From a virus, in IMG/VR virus record IMGVR_UViG_3300017717_000024, positions 1 through 36,522 of that record: a stretch of 36,522 bases of DNA; one strand, written 5' to 3'. The notes under the pieces are model-generated. The model saw only the letters and a program-made list of their open reading frames with translations, ran no database searches and was not told the DNA's origin. The stretch's first letter is position 1; each line of letters starts with the position of its first letter. A program made the position numbers and the translations under genes. Shown here piece by piece: positions 9,393 to 34,537 of the stretch.

Positions 9393-10676
9393 TTATAGTT
9401 GCTTTATTGAATAACCCTGTTTCATATAATGACCCATCCTATTAGAAGCCTGCTTTTTAGCAGTATTCCCTTTTAAATGTATGTCTATTACTACAGGATC
9501 TCTCTTGCCCTCTTCTTTTCGTATTACTCTGCCAATGAGCTGAGTAAGAAGAGGTTCATTGTTAATCGGAGTGCCTAGTATTAGACAACTCAGATTGTTT
9601 ACTGAAATACCTTCCGAAAATATTGCTTGAGTACCAAAAAGAATGTCTTTTTTACCGCTTCTAATTTCAGACAAGTACGTTTCTCTATCCTCATGCGAAA
9701 CCTCGCCCGTAACACAAATAGCGCGTTCACCTGCCAGTTCGGCGCATGCTTTCAGGAAGTGAACTCGATCGCTTACAACCAATACTTTATGCCCTTTTGC
9801 GGCGTAGGCCGCAGCAGTCATGGCAATAGTATGTCGATATTCATCATTGTTTGCTAATTGTGTTACTCGGTTTGCCCAAGGAGTTCTATTCCCATCCATG
9901 AATCTTACTTCTGATCTTAAAATGTGAATAGTGGGTGGCATAAAGTTTTCTTTGGGTGGCTTAAATAGCGTATTACCAAAGTAATCTCTAAACACTACAT
10001 GTTTACCGTCCTTTCGCTCAATCGTACCCGACAAGCCTATCTTGTATCTAGCATAGTTAGTGTCTATTATCTTCGAGAACGTCGGAGACGAGACATGATG
10101 CATTTCATCCAAGATAATTGTGCCAAATACTTTACGTATAGCGGGAAGATTACGGTAAAGAGTTTGAGTGTTCCCAATAACCACAGGACCAGAAAGATCA
10201 AAGCTACCGCTTCCAATAATACTGGGGGTGATTCCATATACTTTCTCTACTTCCTTTGCCCACTGATTTCTCAGAGGGACAGTATGTGTGACAACTAGGG
10301 TTTTTTGTCCCAGCTTTCCAGCTATAGCCAGACCTGTGAACGTTTTACCCCAGCTTACCCATGCGTTAATTATAGCGTTGTCCTCAATCTCATCAAAGAC
10401 AGCTTGCTGACTTTCTCGCAAAGGAAACTTAAACTCTGGAAAGTCTTCGGGCACTTCTATTCGCTTATCAACAATTTCATACTCCTTGGGTATTAAATCC
10501 GTACGTCCAACAGGTATAGTAACTAAATTAGTCTTTACACGAGACATATTTTTAATCACTAAAGGAGGATCTTTTGGATTATAGCTAGGAATTGTATAAG
10601 TTAACTCTTTGTTTAAAAAGTCTTTATACTCGTTCGTAACTTCCAAGTATATTCTATTACTGATTACTGCTTTCAT
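9393..10676 (-). CDS. UvsW/D10-like superfamily 2 DNA helicase
   Basis: 427-residue SF2 helicase, expected to remodel branched DNA (R-loops, stalled forks, D-loops). Motifs: a Q/R region 'FKFPLRESQQAVFDE', motif I 'NAWVSWGKTFTGLAIAG' (the GKT is kept but the usual first Gly of the P-loop is not), Ia 'LVVTHTVPLRNQW', motif II 'IILDEMHHVSS' (DExH), III 'KIGLSGTIER', IV/V 'ILFGTQAIFSEGISV', and VI 'QLIGRVIRKEEGK'. This order and length match phage UvsW and T5 D10 more than host RecG or Rad25. It overlaps the downstream end of glyA by 4 nt. A promoter starts right after its stop codon. Confidence 0.92.
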   Translation of the reverse strand: MKAVISNRIYLEVTNEYKDFLNKELTYTIPSYNPKDPPLVIKNMSRVKTNLVTIPVGRTDLIPKEYEIVDKRIEVPEDFPEFKFPLRESQQAVFDEIEDNAIINAWVSWGKTFTGLAIAGKLGQKTLVVTHTVPLRNQWAKEVEKVYGITPSIIGSGSFDLSGPVVIGNTQTLYRNLPAIRKVFGTIILDEMHHVSSPTFSKIIDTNYARYKIGLSGTIERKDGKHVVFRDYFGNTLFKPPKENFMPPTIHILRSEVRFMDGNRTPWANRVTQLANNDEYRHTIAMTAAAYAAKGHKVLVVSDRVHFLKACAELAGERAICVTGEVSHEDRETYLSEIRSGKKDILFGTQAIFSEGISVNNLSCLILGTPINNEPLLTQLIGRVIRKEEGKRDPVVIDIHLKGNTAKKQASNRMGHYMKQGYSIKQL

Positions 10677-18095: not shown

Positions 18096-18821
18096 TTACT
18101 GCGCAGCTTTAGCAGCTTTTGCAGCACCGTCATAGTCTGCGGCAGACAAGCCCCGTCGAGTCAACATAGTCTTGACACCACGAGCAGTCTTACCAATGGC
18201 CTCTGCGATAGCCTCTACTGTCATACCTGAGATGTCACCCAAGTCTGCCAATGGATCTTCTTTCGCAGCGCCTTTCGTGTGTTCCTGACGAGGAATAGCA
18301 TCAATGTCACCAGAACGCAGCAGGCTCAGAGCCTTGCCTCGTACTGAGTTGACGCTACGGTCAAGAGCATCAGCGATTGCTTCTACATAGGCACCGTCGT
18401 TCACCATCTGAACAAAAGTTTCTTCTTCTGCTTCAGAGTAAGTACGAACAGTCTCTACCTTAGGAGCAGGCTTGACGTGATCAGTCAATTCCATAGACAA
18501 AATCTTGCCTTGGATTGACTTAGCTGAGAAGGCACCGCCTTCAAAGTTATCAGCGATTTGAGCATAAGTATACTCACCGCTGTTGTCTTGCACAAAAGTT
18601 GCAAGAGTGCTTTCTTGTGCTTCGCTAAAAGCACGAGAAGCTGAGGCAGAGGCTAGCTCTACATCATGACCCATCTTGCGCAGCTTGCTAGAAACTGAGC
18701 GAGTTGAGGTTTCAAGCTGTTCTGCTGCTTCTGCAACAGTTGCTTGAGAAACTGGGGATTCGTCACCAACAAAGCTAACGAGCTGGTCAGTACGTTCTTC
18801 GGTCCACTTAGGCAATGCCAT
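18096..18821 (-). CDS. Protein with four tandem helix-turn-helix-like repeats
   Basis: 241 residues, starting MALPKWTEERT. It has four repeats of about 45-50 residues: 5-56, 65-116, 128-175 and 189-226. Each carries an initial '(Y/F/W)(T/S)EA.EE' helix followed by an 'A...SV.GKL..' helix with the signature S-V/I-x-G-K, for example 'TSTRSVSSKLRKMG', 'FSAKSIQGKILSME', 'DRSVNSVRGKALSL' and 'GKTARGVKTMLTRRG'. The same module occurs once in the proteins at 31001 and 33093, and a related form at 21282. It is probably a DNA-binding regulator or architectural protein; function unproven. The ATG at 18821 has GGAG 8 nt upstream. It overlaps the ligase gene by 14 nt. Confidence 0.7.
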   Translation of the reverse strand: MALPKWTEERTDQLVSFVGDESPVSQATVAEAAEQLETSTRSVSSKLRKMGHDVELASASASRAFSEAQESTLATFVQDNSGEYTYAQIADNFEGGAFSAKSIQGKILSMELTDHVKPAPKVETVRTYSEAEEETFVQMVNDGAYVEAIADALDRSVNSVRGKALSLLRSGDIDAIPRQEHTKGAAKEDPLADLGDISGMTVEAIAEAIGKTARGVKTMLTRRGLSAADYDGAAKAAKAAQ

Positions 18822-19572
18822 GTTTTTCTCCAATAAAATCTAAAAGATTTTCAATAATAGTTATGCCAGCTTGTCTGGCTTGTTTTGTTTTAGCTGACTC
18901 AATTCCGCTTTCGTTAATTAAGATAGTCACCTCTTTAGTTAAAGAACTCTTTACAGAGTACCCTAACTCTGATAGTGCTTGTGTAGCGTCAGCTTTAGTC
19001 TTGAAACTCTTGAGCTTGCCACTAATACATACTGCACCTCGGGATTCTGTACTTTCTACGTTTGTTTTTTCAAACTCCAAAGAGTGAGGTAACAAATCCA
19101 GGTCGTCGTTTAGTTCGAGCCATCCTAACAAAGAGTCAGTCTGCTTCGGGCCAAGACCAGCACTTTTACAAACTTCCGCATCGACTTCATAGAGTCCGTT
19201 TGAACATTTTGAAAGTTTCTCAGTAGCTGTCTTGCCTATCAACGGAATACTCATTGCCGGCAACAGAAGGTTCAAAGGAGCCTTCCGAGAGTTTTGTATT
19301 TCTTTAAACAATTTCTCCGCGAGCTTTTCGGAGCTTAGCTTCTCAGCTAGAAACTCAACATCAGCGTCATATATATCGGCAACACCCTCAAAGCCTAGCT
19401 TCTCTACGGAGGCTGGGCCAAGACCTTTGATCTTGAGAGTTTTTGCGAAATGCACAATTTTCTTTTGAGACTGGCTATCGCAATTAGGATTCCGACAAAA
19501 TAGCTGATCATTAGACCATTCAAGAACAGAATTGCAGCTGGGGCAATTTGTTGGAACTTGAATCGTTGTCAC
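18808..19572 (-). CDS. NAD+-dependent DNA ligase, C-terminal half (zinc finger, HhH, BRCT)
   Basis: 254 residues carrying the second half of a LigA-type ligase: zinc finger 'NCPSCNSVLEW...FCRNPNCDSQ' (four Cys), 'LKIKGLGPASVEKLGF' and 'AMSIPLIGKTATEKL' helix-hairpin-helix motifs, and a BRCT domain near the C-terminus ('GAVCISGKLKSFKTKADAT'). The N-terminal adenylation half is the separate gene at 19653. Such a split is known from T5 (ligA/ligB). The GTG at 19572 is chosen: AGGAG lies 8 nt upstream and it follows the promoter at 19601; the longer frame would run into that promoter. Confidence 0.88.
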   Translation of the reverse strand: MTTIQVPTNCPSCNSVLEWSNDQLFCRNPNCDSQSQKKIVHFAKTLKIKGLGPASVEKLGFEGVADIYDADVEFLAEKLSSEKLAEKLFKEIQNSRKAPLNLLLPAMSIPLIGKTATEKLSKCSNGLYEVDAEVCKSAGLGPKQTDSLLGWLELNDDLDLLPHSLEFEKTNVESTESRGAVCISGKLKSFKTKADATQALSELGYSVKSSLTKEVTILINESGIESAKTKQARQAGITIIENLLDFIGEKHGIA

Positions 19573-19600
19573 TAAAAGACTCCTGTGAAATTGAACGTAT

Positions 19601-19629
19601 ATTATACGAGAAAATGAGATTCTTGTCAA
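19601..19629 (-). promoter_or_regulatory. Sigma70-type promoter (TTGACA-17-TATAAT)
   Basis: -35 TTGACA (19629-19624), 17 bp, -10 TATAAT (19606-19601), upstream A-rich AAAAAATAATTC. It drives the ligase C-half, the repeat protein and the helicase, and separates the two ligase genes. Confidence 0.87.
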
Positions 19630-19652: not shown

Positions 19653-20573
19653 CTAAATTTTTACACGTCGGACGATGCGAGGTATAATCTCGCCACTGCG
19701 AATGACTTCCACATCACAACCTAGTTCAAGGTTTAGTGAGCGAATGTACTCAATGTTGTGCAGTGTTGCACGAGATACCGTTGCATCTCCGATTTGTACA
19801 GGCTCTAGAATTGCTACTGGGCTTACAACCCCGCTCTTACCTACCTGCCACTCTACATTAAGTAGTTTTGTTACTACTCCACTTTTTACTTCTTTCAAAG
19901 CAAAAGCTCCGCGAGGGTGGTGAGCCGTATAGCCTAACTCAGCAAACTTCTCGTTATCGTTGATGCGATATACGATGCCATCTGTGGGATATAAGCTATA
20001 TCCTACATCTATAACTGTAGTAAATCCCATACGTCTAAGACCTACGAAGGAACTACGCAGATACACAAAAGGAGTAGGAGTCATATCATAAGCAACAAAG
20101 TCAATCTCTCGCGTTGCAAACTCCTCCATGTCCTTCAAGTTAAGAGCGCCCGAAGCGTAGTTTCTAGCGTTAGGAATATCCGCGGGGGCAACAACTTCTC
20201 CAGTAATCTGTACGATTCCATCTAAGCCGATAGTGTCTGGGACAAGATGAGCCAACTTATCTGTAATGTCTCTACCCATCTTGCCATCACCACGGGTTAG
20301 ACCCATAGCATATTGACCAGATACATATAGAATAGATACTGCGGCACCGTCCAGTTTTGGAGAGCTGATATACTCCGGCACCAAAGGGCCGGCATCTTCC
20401 AGAGAGAAATACTTCTGCAATGAGTACATAGGAAAATGGTGGGGTATACCATCAGTAATCCTATGTCCTATAGAGTCATAGCCATACTCGCTTGACAGTG
20501 CATCAAACTCCTCATCAGAAATGATGGGGGCTCCTGCATAGTAAGCGGCTGCGGCTTTCTCCAAAAATTGCAT
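19653..20573 (-). CDS. NAD+-dependent DNA ligase, N-terminal adenylation half
   Basis: 306 residues. It starts in the Ia domain ('YYAGAPIISDEEFDAL', the NAD+-binding YY...D pattern) and continues through the adenylation domain with the nucleophile Lys in 'SPKLDGAAVSILY' (KxDG, about 72), 'LTRGDGKMGRDIT', 'ITGEVVAP', 'DGIVYRIND' and 'FALKEVKSG', and ends in the OB-fold with 'HNIEYIRSLNLELG' and 'RSGEIIPRIV'. It stops where the zinc finger should begin, so it depends on the gene at 18808. The ATG at 20573 has GGAG 6 nt upstream and follows the promoter at 20599. A full ligase fold split into two polypeptides is inferred to reassemble. Confidence 0.9.
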   Translation of the reverse strand: MQFLEKAAAAYYAGAPIISDEEFDALSSEYGYDSIGHRITDGIPHHFPMYSLQKYFSLEDAGPLVPEYISSPKLDGAAVSILYVSGQYAMGLTRGDGKMGRDITDKLAHLVPDTIGLDGIVQITGEVVAPADIPNARNYASGALNLKDMEEFATREIDFVAYDMTPTPFVYLRSSFVGLRRMGFTTVIDVGYSLYPTDGIVYRINDNEKFAELGYTAHHPRGAFALKEVKSGVVTKLLNVEWQVGKSGVVSPVAILEPVQIGDATVSRATLHNIEYIRSLNLELGCDVEVIRSGEIIPRIVRRVKI

Positions 20574-20598
20574 GTATTTCTCCACTGAATGAACATAT

Positions 20599-30945: not shown

Positions 30946-31013
30946 TGTATTAACTCCACTTGAAGGTATCCAATTGCTAACCCCGCTACGGCCCCGAGAA
31001 TTATGTAATACAT
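30933..31013 (-). CDS. Possible hydrophobic peptide, 26 aa
   Basis: 26 residues, 'MYYIILGAVAGLAIGYLQVE'; a GxxxG-like single helix. The ATG lies in the end of the upstream gene and the stop in the start of the next gene. It is compatible with a membrane peptide but evidence is weak. Confidence 0.3.
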   Translation of the reverse strand: MYYIILGAVAGLAIGYLQVELIQCAI

Positions 31014-31312
31014 AAATTGTCCTTTAATAGTTTTAGTACGTTCTTTGGGGCTTTCTCCAACCCCGCTAAGGCTTCTAAATTGAAGCCTAACGCGTCTTCC
31101 AGCTCTCTCACCATTTCTTCTTTGGTTATAGGTTGATCGCCTGATTTTGTCTTGTAGACAGAGCGGCGATACACTCCTTCTCTACTGAGCTTTCCGATAA
31201 TAGATTTTTTACTCTTCTCGAGTTCTGAAGCCAACCGCTCAACTGTAATAGTAGTTGGCTTACTAGTATATTCATCAATCATATACTTAGTTTGGTCTTC
31301 TGTGTAGTTCAT
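31001..31312 (-). CDS. HTH-repeat protein (single unit) with helical C-domain
   Basis: 103 residues: 'NYTEDQTKYMIDEYTSKPTT' then 'VERLASELEKSKKSIIGKLS' and 'REGVYRRSVYKTKSG', the same S-I-I-x-K-L-S-x-x-G-(V/I)-Y unit as in 33093 and 18096. The C-terminal half 'ITKEEMVRELEDALGFNLEA' ends in a short helix 'NVLKLLKDNL'. Probably DNA-binding; no partner known. Confidence 0.72.
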   Translation of the reverse strand: MNYTEDQTKYMIDEYTSKPTTITVERLASELEKSKKSIIGKLSREGVYRRSVYKTKSGDQPITKEEMVRELEDALGFNLEALAGLEKAPKNVLKLLKDNLCIT

Positions 31313-31524
31313 ACCTGAAAATGCCTATCAATAGTGTCCAATTTTTCTTGGCTTTCCGCCAGCTTTGCTACTTCTGCTTCAATAGCTTCAATGAGTTGTG
31401 GGTGTTCGCCTATCCCCGTTGCCGATTGCATGTACACTCTAATGTTTGCTTTGTGTACTGCTACTTCGCCTTCCAGTCTTTGTGCGAGTGCATCCAACAA
31501 AAAGTAATTATCTTGCTTTGCCAT
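31309..31524 (-). CDS. Conserved small phage protein, 71 aa
   Basis: 71 residues, helical: 'LLDALAQRLEGEVAVHKANI', 'RVYMQSATGIGEHPQLIEAI' and a coiled 'EVAKLAESQEKLDTI'. The 'ALAQRLE...A.I..Y....GIGEHP.L.EA' pattern is conserved among marine phages; role unknown. It overlaps genes on both sides by 1-4 nt. Confidence 0.65.
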   Translation of the reverse strand: MAKQDNYFLLDALAQRLEGEVAVHKANIRVYMQSATGIGEHPQLIEAIEAEVAKLAESQEKLDTIDRHFQV

Positions 31525-31841
31525 TATAAGTCTTCTCCATCTTCTGGTGGTGTGAATGATATTTCTACTTCTCCGTCAGCGCCTTGAATCATAGAAACAA
31601 AAGTGCAGAACTCTAGCCATTTCACTTCTACATTCTCTGGGCCAACAATCTCGGCATAGAGCTGTATTAGTTCTTGGTAAGAGTCTTCTAACTCTAAAGT
31701 GTTTTGTTGAATTGCTTGGAATCCTTGATCTATTCTTCTGATAGCTTCATAAAGCTCAGTTAGTGACTCCTGCATTTCCTCCATTTGTTTTTCTAGTTGT
31801 ACTTTTTCTTTGCGTTCAGGGAATTGAATTATTTGTGCCAT
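31524..31841 (-). CDS. Coiled-coil phage protein of unknown function
   Basis: 105 residues: N-terminal 'AQIIQFPERKEKVQLEKQME' followed by a long coiled coil rich in E/L/Q, then a hydrophobic/acidic C-terminal end 'FTPPEDGEDL'. First gene after the promoter at 31866 with AAGGAG before the ATG. No function assigned. Confidence 0.65.
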   Translation of the reverse strand: MAQIIQFPERKEKVQLEKQMEEMQESLTELYEAIRRIDQGFQAIQQNTLELEDSYQELIQLYAEIVGPENVEVKWLEFCTFVSMIQGADGEVEISFTPPEDGEDL

Positions 31842-31865: not shown

Positions 31866-31894
31866 ATTATACTGGACATACGAAATTTTGTCAA
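31866..31894 (-). promoter_or_regulatory. Sigma70-type promoter (TTGACA-17-TATAAT)
   Basis: -35 TTGACA (31894-31889), 17 bp, -10 TATAAT (31871-31866); it lies 22 nt beyond the terminator of the ncRNA, so a new transcription unit begins here. Confidence 0.87.
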
Positions 31895-31915
31895 GAAATT
31901 TTTTTGAACACGCAT

Positions 31916-31950
31916 AAAAAAATCCCCAGACAATTTCTCATCTGAGGATT
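31916..31950 (-). terminator. Rho-independent terminator of the ncRNA
   Basis: Minus strand AATCCTCAGA-(10 nt)-TCTGGGGATT followed by a T-run: a strong stem with one mismatch and a U-tract. It ends the RNA that begins near 32263. Confidence 0.82.
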
Positions 31951-32263
31951 TTCACACTAACAAGGGTAAGTGGCTGCCTCCGTCTTTCCACTTAGCAGAG
32001 GTGACACTAGGTTGCAACCTCTCCCACTCGTCTGATTGGGGTAGTTCAGCGAGCTGTGACTCATAACCCGAGGTCCAGGAGCTATATTACGCAATTGACG
32101 ATATCTTAATAGCAAAGCAACGGCTCTTCGGTAGAGCAAACCTCCACGGCCATCCTCCGTGGATAGGAAGGGCTGCAGCCAGGAGCGGCCTTCACTGCAT
32201 CTTTACTGCCTTATCTCGTATGAGTGGTACCCCTCTCAGAGTCCCTGGCTTCCCTTGAATTGA
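31916..32263 (-). ncRNA. Novel phage structured RNA, about 340 nt
   Basis: A transcription unit with its own promoter (32270) and terminator (31916) but no credible ORF. On the minus strand it has many local pairings: AAGGG/CCCTT and GCCAGG/CCTGGC enclosing a 60-nt arm at the 5' end; CCACGG/CCGTGG with a 7-nt loop; GCTCT/AGAGC with loop ACCGA; AGAGGT/ACCTCT; and AAGTGG/CCACTT. The 5' end is near 32263. I checked it by eye against RNase P, 6S, SRP RNA and group I intron core motifs and found no match. Its neighbours are a tRNA gene immediately upstream and the tmRNA farther up, suggesting an RNA-gene cluster. Function unknown. Confidence 0.7.
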
Positions 32264-32269
32264 GCGTAT

Positions 32270-32298
32270 ATTATATCGAAATATAACATGTTCGTCAA
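32270..32298 (-). promoter_or_regulatory. Sigma70-type promoter of the ncRNA (TTGACG-17-TATAAT)
   Basis: -35 TTGACG (32298-32293), 17 bp, -10 TATAAT (32275-32270). It begins 11 bp after the 3' end of the tRNA. Confidence 0.85.
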
Positions 32299-32309
32299 GA
32301 ACTATTTTT

Positions 32310-32383
32310 TGGCAGGTGGGCACAGAATTAAACTGCAAATTTCGATTTTGGAAATCGACGTGTTATCATTACACCACCCACCT
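32310..32383 (-). tRNA. tRNA-Trp (anticodon CCA), with reduced D/T loops
   Basis: 74 nt including encoded CCA. Acceptor stem AGGTGGG/CCCACCT is seven perfect pairs; position 8 is T; D stem GTGT/ACAC with a 7-nt loop AATGATA; anticodon stem TCGAT/ATCGA with loop TTCCAAA, anticodon CCA; variable loop of four; T stem TGCAG/CTGTG (two wobbles) with loop TTTAATT; discriminator G. The discriminator G, anticodon CCA and AGG..CCT ends match E. coli tRNA-Trp. The D loop lacks the GG and the T loop lacks TTC, so its tertiary contacts would be abnormal. It starts 6 nt after the stop of the small basic gene at 32390. Confidence 0.8.
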
Positions 32384-32772: not shown

Positions 32773-32899
32773 ATCTTTTTCGTTATAATACTTAGAAAAC
32801 ATACTAAGGATACTGATTACATGGTACTAGCCAAAACCTCAGTATGCTTACTAAGTGCCTCTCCTTTGGGTAACAAGGCGAAAGGCTCTCCCCGCTAGC

Positions 32900-32932
32900 T
32901 TATGCAGCTAGTTGATAAACGTCATCGTTTGC
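32900..32932 (-). other. tmRNA tag-peptide reading frame: ANDDVYQLAA
   Basis: Resume codon GCA at 32932, then 10 codons (GCA AAC GAT GAC GTT TAT CAA CTA GCT GCA) and TAA. The end L-A-A fits the ClpXP degradation signal. CTAGC and GCTAG flank the last codons and the stop, forming the helix-5-type hairpin found in tmRNAs. Confidence 0.92.
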
Positions 32933-33033
32933 GTTTAGTTTATTTCCGGAGTGTTGTTAACGTCTTTGATCCGGTACTGTTGACGATTCTCCACTAACCT
33001 GAGATTGCTTGTCGAAACCTGACTCCCCCATCG

Positions 33034-33090
33034 TGGTGGAGGAGGGGGGAATCGAACCCCCGTCCACTCAATCCTACTTTAGCTTCATCG
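33034..33090 (-). ncRNA. tmRNA acceptor piece
   Basis: The part between the stop of the gene at 33093 and the encoded CCA. It includes AGGATTG, which can pair with CAATCT of the coding piece as helix 2, then GGAC and the T arm. Its 5' end is an estimate from the pairing. Confidence 0.8.
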
Positions 33091-33092
33091 AA

Positions 33093-33431
33093 TTACTGAA
33101 CTGCTACTACTGAGATTGCAGATAAAAGCGTTTGCAAATCAGCTTTGGTAGCTTTGGCAAGAGTAGGTACTTCCACACCAACTGATGCCTGAATCTGAGC
33201 TACTAGCTCTTCTTTGCGAACCACTGGAGTACCTTGCTTGGTTACTCGTGCTTCAGCTTTGTAGATACCCATGCTTGACAGCTTAGCAATAATGCTGCGT
33301 ACTGGCTTGTCAAACTCTGCAGCTAGGGCTTCTGCGGTTGCTCGTGAAGGAGCATTGGTATACATCTCTTCCATCATAGAGATCATGTCCTCGGTGTAGT
33401 TGCTTGATGGTTTTGCGGTAAAGTCGCTCAT
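33093..33431 (-). CDS. HTH-repeat protein (single unit), tmRNA neighbour
   Basis: 112 residues: 'SNYTEDMISMMEEMYTNAPS', 'EALAAEFDKPVRSIIAKLSS' and 'MGIYKAEARVTKQG', the same unit as in 31001 (S-I-I-x-K-L-S-x-x-G-(I/V)-Y). The C-domain 'VVRKEELVAQIQASVGVEVP' closes with a helix 'KADLQTLLSAI'. The gene ends at the TAA (33093) just before the acceptor piece of the tmRNA, and the two are likely cotranscribed. Probable DNA-binding protein. Confidence 0.74.
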   Translation of the reverse strand: MSDFTAKPSSNYTEDMISMMEEMYTNAPSRATAEALAAEFDKPVRSIIAKLSSMGIYKAEARVTKQGTPVVRKEELVAQIQASVGVEVPTLAKATKADLQTLLSAISVVAVQ

Positions 33432-33907: not shown

Positions 33908-34537
33908 TTATCCCTCGTACTTCTGTTCCAGCACATCGCACAGCTTAGTAATAAGAGCTAGCTTGCCTGATGCTTTCTTGTTATAATCAATCGTATGCCA
34001 GTCCCCTCGGGTTATTACACGCTCTTTAAGCAGAGTCATCTGATCGTAGTAGGATAGTGCTTTCTCATCATTGGGAGACAGTTTCCAGAACTTCAATGGA
34101 GAGTGCTTTCTCTCGTGAATCCTGGCAGCCTGCTCTTCTTCGCTGATAGACAGCCAAAATTTAATCATGTGAACAGGCTGGCAGATTTCCCATGCCTCTA
34201 CCGTTTCCATGAAGATTTTGTACTGCTCATCTGTGCACCAGCCATTGATCTTTTGAACCATAGCTCGGGAGTACCAAGAGCGATCATAGAATACCATCTG
34301 AGGGCCAGAAGGCATCTTTGTTTTCCAGTAGCCCAGCCAATTATCCATAGTTTCTTTACTAGGCTTGGCAGACAGCTGGACGCTAAACTTATTCATAGGC
34401 AGATAGTGAGTAGCCTCACGAATAGTAGATGACTTACCCGCAGTGTCTCGTCCTTCTAATATCACTGCTACAGGCCCAAAGTCTTCGGACATGACGAGTT
34501 GATTAAGTCGGGCTTGTTGCTGTTCTAATGGGGTCAT
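33908..34537 (-). CDS. Polyphosphate kinase 2 (PPK2) family protein
   Basis: 209 residues. 'VILEGRDTAGKSSTIREATH' is the Walker A region (about 28), 'MVFYDRSWYSRAMVQKINGW' the Walker B/lid start (about 80), and 'KFWLSISEEEQAARIHER' with 'SPLKFWKLSPNDEKALSYYD' the rest of the PPK2 signature. PPK2 transfers phosphate between polyphosphate and nucleotides (NMP/NDP to NDP/NTP), so it could raise NTP/dNTP supply during infection (inference). It is shorter than many bacterial PPK2 proteins (about 230-300). It lies 2 nt upstream of the zincin start chosen here. Confidence 0.88.
   Translation of the reverse strand: MTPLEQQQARLNQLVMSEDFGPVAVILEGRDTAGKSSTIREATHYLPMNKFSVQLSAKPSKETMDNWLGYWKTKMPSGPQMVFYDRSWYSRAMVQKINGWCTDEQYKIFMETVEAWEICQPVHMIKFWLSISEEEQAARIHERKHSPLKFWKLSPNDEKALSYYDQMTLLKERVITRGDWHTIDYNKKASGKLALITKLCDVLEQKYEG

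Follow-up and report, generated by a model that had tools for sequence, protein, structure and literature searches.

A modular family of structured non-coding RNAs in uncultured phages

The window, the whole 36,522-base stretch of viral DNA analysed here, carries beside a tRNA gene and a tmRNA gene a non-coding RNA that almost certainly represents a real and new RNA family. The best overall explanation, which we hold with a probability of roughly 0.55, is a stand-alone structured RNA composed of two modules, A and B, that serves as a scaffold in a manner dependent on its shape. The window encodes T5-like replication genes, and the element is probably a new phage RNA of T5-related uncultured phages rather than a stray piece of DNA. 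An earlier, sequence-only reading had raised the possibility of a new class of phage RNA; covariation, synteny, the conservation of promoter and terminator and the lack of a matching Rfam family now support it. Large structured phage RNAs are few, and the present one joins them as a compact and unrelated family with clear covariation, carried by T5-like and other uncultured phages. At ~345 nt, the member in the window is small enough for routine structure work.

A transcription unit of its own in an RNA gene island

The sequence-only reading had described a consensus-like promoter, a Rho-independent terminator and no plausible open reading frame between them, flanked by a tRNA and a tmRNA, and each of these observations holds (Table 1). 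The whole window contains 17 near-perfect promoters (11-12 of 12 consensus positions, mostly with a 17-nt spacer), compared with 0.85 expected under a first-order Markov model, and the promoter at 32298-32270 thus belongs to a genuine phage promoter set. The terminator hairpin has a folding energy of -17.3 kcal/mol (z = -5.0), which none of 200 shuffles equalled. Both signals are present in most relatives, and in most of those that begin with module A a similar promoter lies directly upstream of it. Because the tRNA-Trp gene lies upstream of the promoter, it is outside the RNA. The sole ORF in the unit (60 aa, 31957-32139, TTG start) is interrupted by in-frame stops in L083, L084, L086, L106 and L085, the last of which also has frame-shifting gaps, and a protein-coding reading was ruled out.

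Several other features of the record were seen in passing. Two paralogous small genes (31001-31312 and 33093-33431, minus strand), ~40% identical and weakly matching a PHROG family of DNA-binding proteins, stand on either side of the RNA island. A polyphosphate kinase 2 gene is found at 33908-34537 (minus strand; PF03976, E 6e-41), the copies in relatives being 53-100% identical, and the NAD-dependent DNA ligase is encoded by two adjacent genes (18808-19629 and 19653-20585, minus strand).

Table 1. The RNA, its modules and its neighbours in window coordinates
Feature	Positions	Strand	Remarks
Permuted tmRNA	32809..33130	(-)	neighbour; tag ANDDVYQLAA
tRNA-Trp(cca)	32310..32383	(-)	neighbour; upstream of the RNA's promoter
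Sigma70-type promoter	32270..32298	(-)	TTGACG-17-TATAAT, 11/12 consensus; predicted start near 32263
Non-coding RNA transcription unit	31916..32263	(-)	~348 nt (~345)
Module A, three-way junction	32164..32260	(-)	comparative structure
Module A P1	32256-32252 / 32172-32168	(-)	
Module A P2	32249-32247 / 32210-32208	(-)	GCC / GGC, plus CUC/GAG
Module A P3	32198-32195 / 32178-32175	(-)	GCAG / CUGC
Window-type hairpin CCACGG/CCGUGG	32143..32163	(-)	pairs changed on both sides
Window-type hairpin GCUCU/AGAGC	32123..32137	(-)	one pair G-C to A-U, both sides changed
Module B	31967..32053	(-)	hairpin with putative pseudoknot, and two hairpins
Module B Pa hairpin	32053-32027	(-)	CCCC loop 32041-32038 facing GGG 32025-32023
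Module B Pb	32022-32017 / 32002-31997	(-)	AGAGGU / ACCUCU
Module B Pc	31993-31988 / 31973-31968	(-)	AAGUGG / CCACUU; GGAGG loop
Intrinsic terminator	31916..31952	(-)	hairpin and T run
Downstream 105-aa gene	31524..31841	(-)	marker of the conserved slot; own promoter 31894-31866

The RNA was compared with 4,227 Rfam families at the gathering score and at E<=10. No family matched the unit at the gathering score, and at E<=10 nothing meaningful was found over region 31880-32320: the only matches, NsiR1, His_leader and MIR8001 (E 0.33-8.1), all rest on the terminator hairpin. The models for RNase P, SRP, 6S, group I introns, tRNA and tmRNA gave no match over the same region, in line with what the sequence-only reading had judged by eye for the first four. 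Three distant relatives were likewise without a match at E<=10, and 28 related loci searched whole at the gathering score yielded nothing besides tRNA and tmRNA. A known family as the identity of the RNA was thereby ruled out. The suggested kinship with GOLLD and ROOL found no support, as neither model matched the window and its relatives at the gathering score, or any of four RNAs searched at E<=10. On the plus strand, a stretch resembling tRNA-Met (GUAGUUCAGCGAGCUGUGACUCAUAACC) was seen by eye and considered chance, there being no tRNA match there. Among the titles and abstracts listed by full-text searches of an open-access library, none described such an RNA.

Relatives and covarying helices

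The folding energy of the whole RNA is ordinary (z = -1.12; 17 of 100 shuffles were as good), and therefore only comparison can decide whether the RNA is real. Close copies with 85-100% DNA identity occupy the same gene slot in L082, L083, L084, L085, L086 and L106, and more distant phages carry in this slot RNAs of ~450-650 nt with the same layout of promoter and terminator; where both signals were mapped, relatives measure ~330 to ~780 nt. A 17-mer from the 5' part added more than 20 contigs with a complete module A to these relatives, and in all ~37 phage contigs carry module A, mostly in the same slot. In most of them the flanking genes g112 and g105/g103 have homologues close to the RNA, with protein identities as low as 23-60%. 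At L331/L339/L326, L310 and L312/L314 none of the tested window genes lies nearby, so the RNA is not restricted to one gene neighbourhood.

Searches further afield returned little. The core 17-mer was found in 64 stretches of bacterial and archaeal genomes, none of them with the context of module A. Cultured phages gave no DNA match to the window RNA, apart from a single 30-nt match in one search, and five Demerecviridae genomes were without module A. The one weak match to module B (E 0.023), from Aeromonas phage Akh-2, falls within an annotated gene and was taken as chance. Most contigs related through the methyltransferase lacked both modules in the sequence examined. Two patterns were also tried: TTGCGARTGGN{4,14}AGGAGG gave mostly chance matches in viral contigs and one true new member, and CTATGTTTGTGTGTAA gave, beyond the known members, mostly chance matches.

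Module A follows the order P1, AA, a P2 arm in which GCC and GGC enclose an internal loop, the joining strand AGUAAAGAU, P3, AG and the return strand of P1. Among 21 distinct sequences, 98.1% of the pair cells in its helices are standard and 10 of 15 pairs have changed on both sides; the covariation score is 0.582 against 0.166 in shuffles (none of 500 as good), and register-shifted controls were at most 46% paired. Because the helix arms of both modules were chosen by eye or by a script that seeks pairing, these counts and those given below for module B lean toward the structure. The joining strands are near-invariant on sequence comparison, although the constancy of one strand is partly a matter of selection, since distant loci were picked by the exact 17-mer GATAAGGCAGTAAAGAT; P1, most of the outer helix of P2 and P3 lay outside this pattern. 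The minimum-energy fold of module A in L279 equals the comparative structure, whereas the energy-only fold of the window's own module A differs from it. In the covariance model of module A (R3), the structure line is one column off for two helices; R3 is therefore largely a sequence model, and its matches rest mainly on sequence.

In module B, 99.4% of the cells are paired among 10 distinct sequences, with none of 500 shuffles as good, and 16 of 18 pairs have changed on both sides, one pair in Pb passing through all four Watson-Crick types. Helix arms were compared directly, because Pb or Pa was wrongly aligned between the types of RNA in the MAFFT alignments (A1-A8). The CCCC loop of Pa and the GGG downstream form a putative H-type pseudoknot; this pairing is invariant and thus stands without covariation support. 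The Pc loop reads GGAGG in nearly all members and GGCGG in L279, and in L315, which lies outside the counts, Pc was recognised by eye as GAGCAAG/CUUGCUC. Several long members also share a hairpin with the motif AAUUGGUAUNAAUUCCUAUG between the two modules. A model built from the long RNAs only (R1) recovered all RNAs of the window type (E 0.002-0.035, in a search of 515 kb), matched nothing else there, and later scored L255 at 2e-21 and L279 at 4e-11. Another model, R2, did not detect module B in many records that bear module A.

Six helices had been proposed from the single sequence as pairs to examine for covariation in relatives. Four of them, CCACGG/CCGTGG, GCTCT/AGAGC, AGAGGT/ACCTCT and AAGTGG/CCACTT, show changes on both sides. 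AAGGG/CCCTT corresponds to P1 of module A and is supported there; conceivably, AAGGG could instead pair with an invariant CCCTTG close to the 3' end. The sixth, GCCAGG/CCTGGC, found no support: relatives have CCTATC as the 3' strand, and in the conserved fold the GCC takes a downstream GGC as its partner.

Modules that change position

The description of the element as one structured RNA proved right as to structure and wrong as to singleness, because the family is modular and its modules move between RNAs. As read from the compared sequences, the RNA consists of two separately folding modules with variable material between and after them. Module A can open the RNA, close it or sit on a different transcript, and the stem of the tmRNA can bear an A-like element. 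The promoter is immediately ahead of module A in most contigs. A distance of 200-380 nt separates the two in L306/L322, L324 and L331/L339/L326, which places module A in the 3' part of the unit, and module A is also preceded by other sequence, structured or coding, in L302, L319 and L327. Module A ends one unit in L315:1-1860 (the end of the contig) and module B belongs to another, the A unit being upstream and separated from the B unit by ORFs, a tRNA-Trp and a promoter. In L088 a tRNA (10343-10416; 52.6 bits with Rfam, anticodon unassigned by ARAGORN) lies inside a long B-type RNA, between module B and a 3' extension.

The six contigs L088-L093 carry module B in an RNA without module A, and there an A-like element caps the stem that ends the tmRNA gene (for example, L091:9300-9378). 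It was recognised by eye after a weak match of R3 (E 0.014 in that record) and shares its junction strands with module A: GGGAA, GAC/GUC (where module A has GCC/GGC), AGUAAAGAU or AGAAAAGAU, P3 and AG. The corresponding stem of the window's tmRNA (~32795-32849) ends in a plain loop, as do those of L085 and L086. The element is present at 6/6 loci with B but no A and at 0/17 with both A and B in view, the latter count being limited by the fact that only some A loci include a tmRNA in the sequence examined. Since the six B-only contigs are closely related, the A-like element may reflect a single evolutionary event. Module A on the RNA and the A-like element on the tmRNA are complementary in occurrence, which makes a link to translation rescue directly testable.

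Possible roles and known phage RNAs

A strong host-type promoter with a terminator of its own defines, by sequence, a discrete transcription unit. The transcript may be abundant and stable and may owe its activity to its fold, serving as a structural or scaffold RNA within a translation island of tRNA and tmRNA genes. In T5-like phages, strong host-type promoters suggest early and abundant expression. Tertiary contacts, or contacts with a partner, are suggested by the conserved unpaired strands, and a role around translation by the position next to tRNA and tmRNA. Among mechanisms, we infer that a scaffold is the most likely, followed by a split RNA acting with tmRNA or the ribosome and then by a regulatory RNA. 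By analogy with GOLLD and ROOL, we tentatively propose that the RNA works through its shape, as a scaffold or assembly RNA. Recent work has reportedly shown each of these two, so far without an assigned function, to assemble into RNA-only nanocages. The narrower form of this analogy, in which many copies would join through loop-loop contacts into a closed cage or ring, seems rather unlikely. It could account for the candidate pseudoknot and the conserved unpaired strands and loops, and it suits an RNA with its own promoter in the same setting, a phage beside tRNA and tmRNA genes; one member even contains a tRNA, as do some GOLLD linkers (PMC12286853). Against it stand the lack of a match to either family and the length of ~345 nt, compared with 659 nt for ROOL and more than 800 nt for many GOLLD RNAs (PMC12286853).

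The distribution of module A would also be expected if it were a portable domain, needed once per genome on either the non-coding RNA or the tmRNA precursor and acting with module B in trans. This reading draws on the complementary counts above, on the separate A and B units of L315 and on the nearness of a tmRNA in many members; yet the six B-only contigs are close relatives that possibly record one event, and several A loci have no tmRNA in the flank examined (these are fragments, and a tmRNA may lie beyond), so that we regard it as unlikely. An extended version, with A and B as the two parts of a single RNA machine that can be both circularly permuted and split, and whose parts would assemble in trans to act on ribosomes or trans-translation during infection, we consider improbable. 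A trans-acting regulatory RNA, whether a base-pairing sRNA, a protein sponge or a ribosome decoy, would agree with a discrete transcription unit under a strong host-type promoter and with the Shine-Dalgarno-like GGAGG that nearly all members have in the Pc loop. A conserved architecture of several helices sets the RNA apart from seed-pairing sRNAs, however, and the GGCGG of L279 weakens the decoy, leaving this role improbable. Poorest of all is the prospect that the unit is an untranslated leader or tail of neighbouring genes: it does lie between genes of one orientation, and a small ORF follows module A in L339 and L315, but in the window, as in most relatives, it is set apart from the 105-aa gene by a strong terminator and a new consensus promoter.

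A stand-alone scaffold RNA of a new family, our preferred reading, can be set beside several known systems. The Melnitz phage has a permuted two-piece tmRNA whose ssrA 3' domain bears a predicted glutamine riboswitch (PMC9004378), and the A-like element resembles it in being a structured addition to the 3' portion of the tmRNA gene of a marine phage; the difference is that in most phages module A sits on a separate RNA. The glutamine (glnA) riboswitch model found no match at E<=10 in the window RNA and three distant relatives, nor at the gathering score in L088, L091, L092 and L093, which carry A-like tmRNA elements. Module A, having no Rfam match, is therefore not the riboswitch of Melnitz. 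The ICP1 vibriophage produces orf-less transcripts of ~800 nt and ~300 nt, with the larger the most abundant of all its transcripts (PMC7567579); the likeness is one of description and serves as a lead, the phage collection searched having given no match to the window RNA.

The window RNA shows covarying helices, its own promoter and terminator and no ORF, and so fits the general kind of structured phage non-coding RNA. GOLLD RNAs are large, structured and phage-borne near tRNAs, which are sometimes found inside them (PMC12286853), and the window RNA shares this location. It differs in the absence of a covariance-model match, in being much shorter (relatives run over the range given above) and in modules that reorder or split between transcripts. 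ROOL (Rumen-Originating, Ornate, Large) RNAs occur in phages and prophages near tRNA islands and have an elaborate structure with pseudoknots (PMC12286853); in the window RNA, which no ROOL model matched and which is about half the size, the location near a tRNA island and the elaborate structure recur, with a pseudoknot that is putative. The resemblance to GOLLD and ROOL is thus one of context only: a phage genome, a neighbourhood of tRNA and tmRNA, a promoter of its own and a tRNA inside one long relative.
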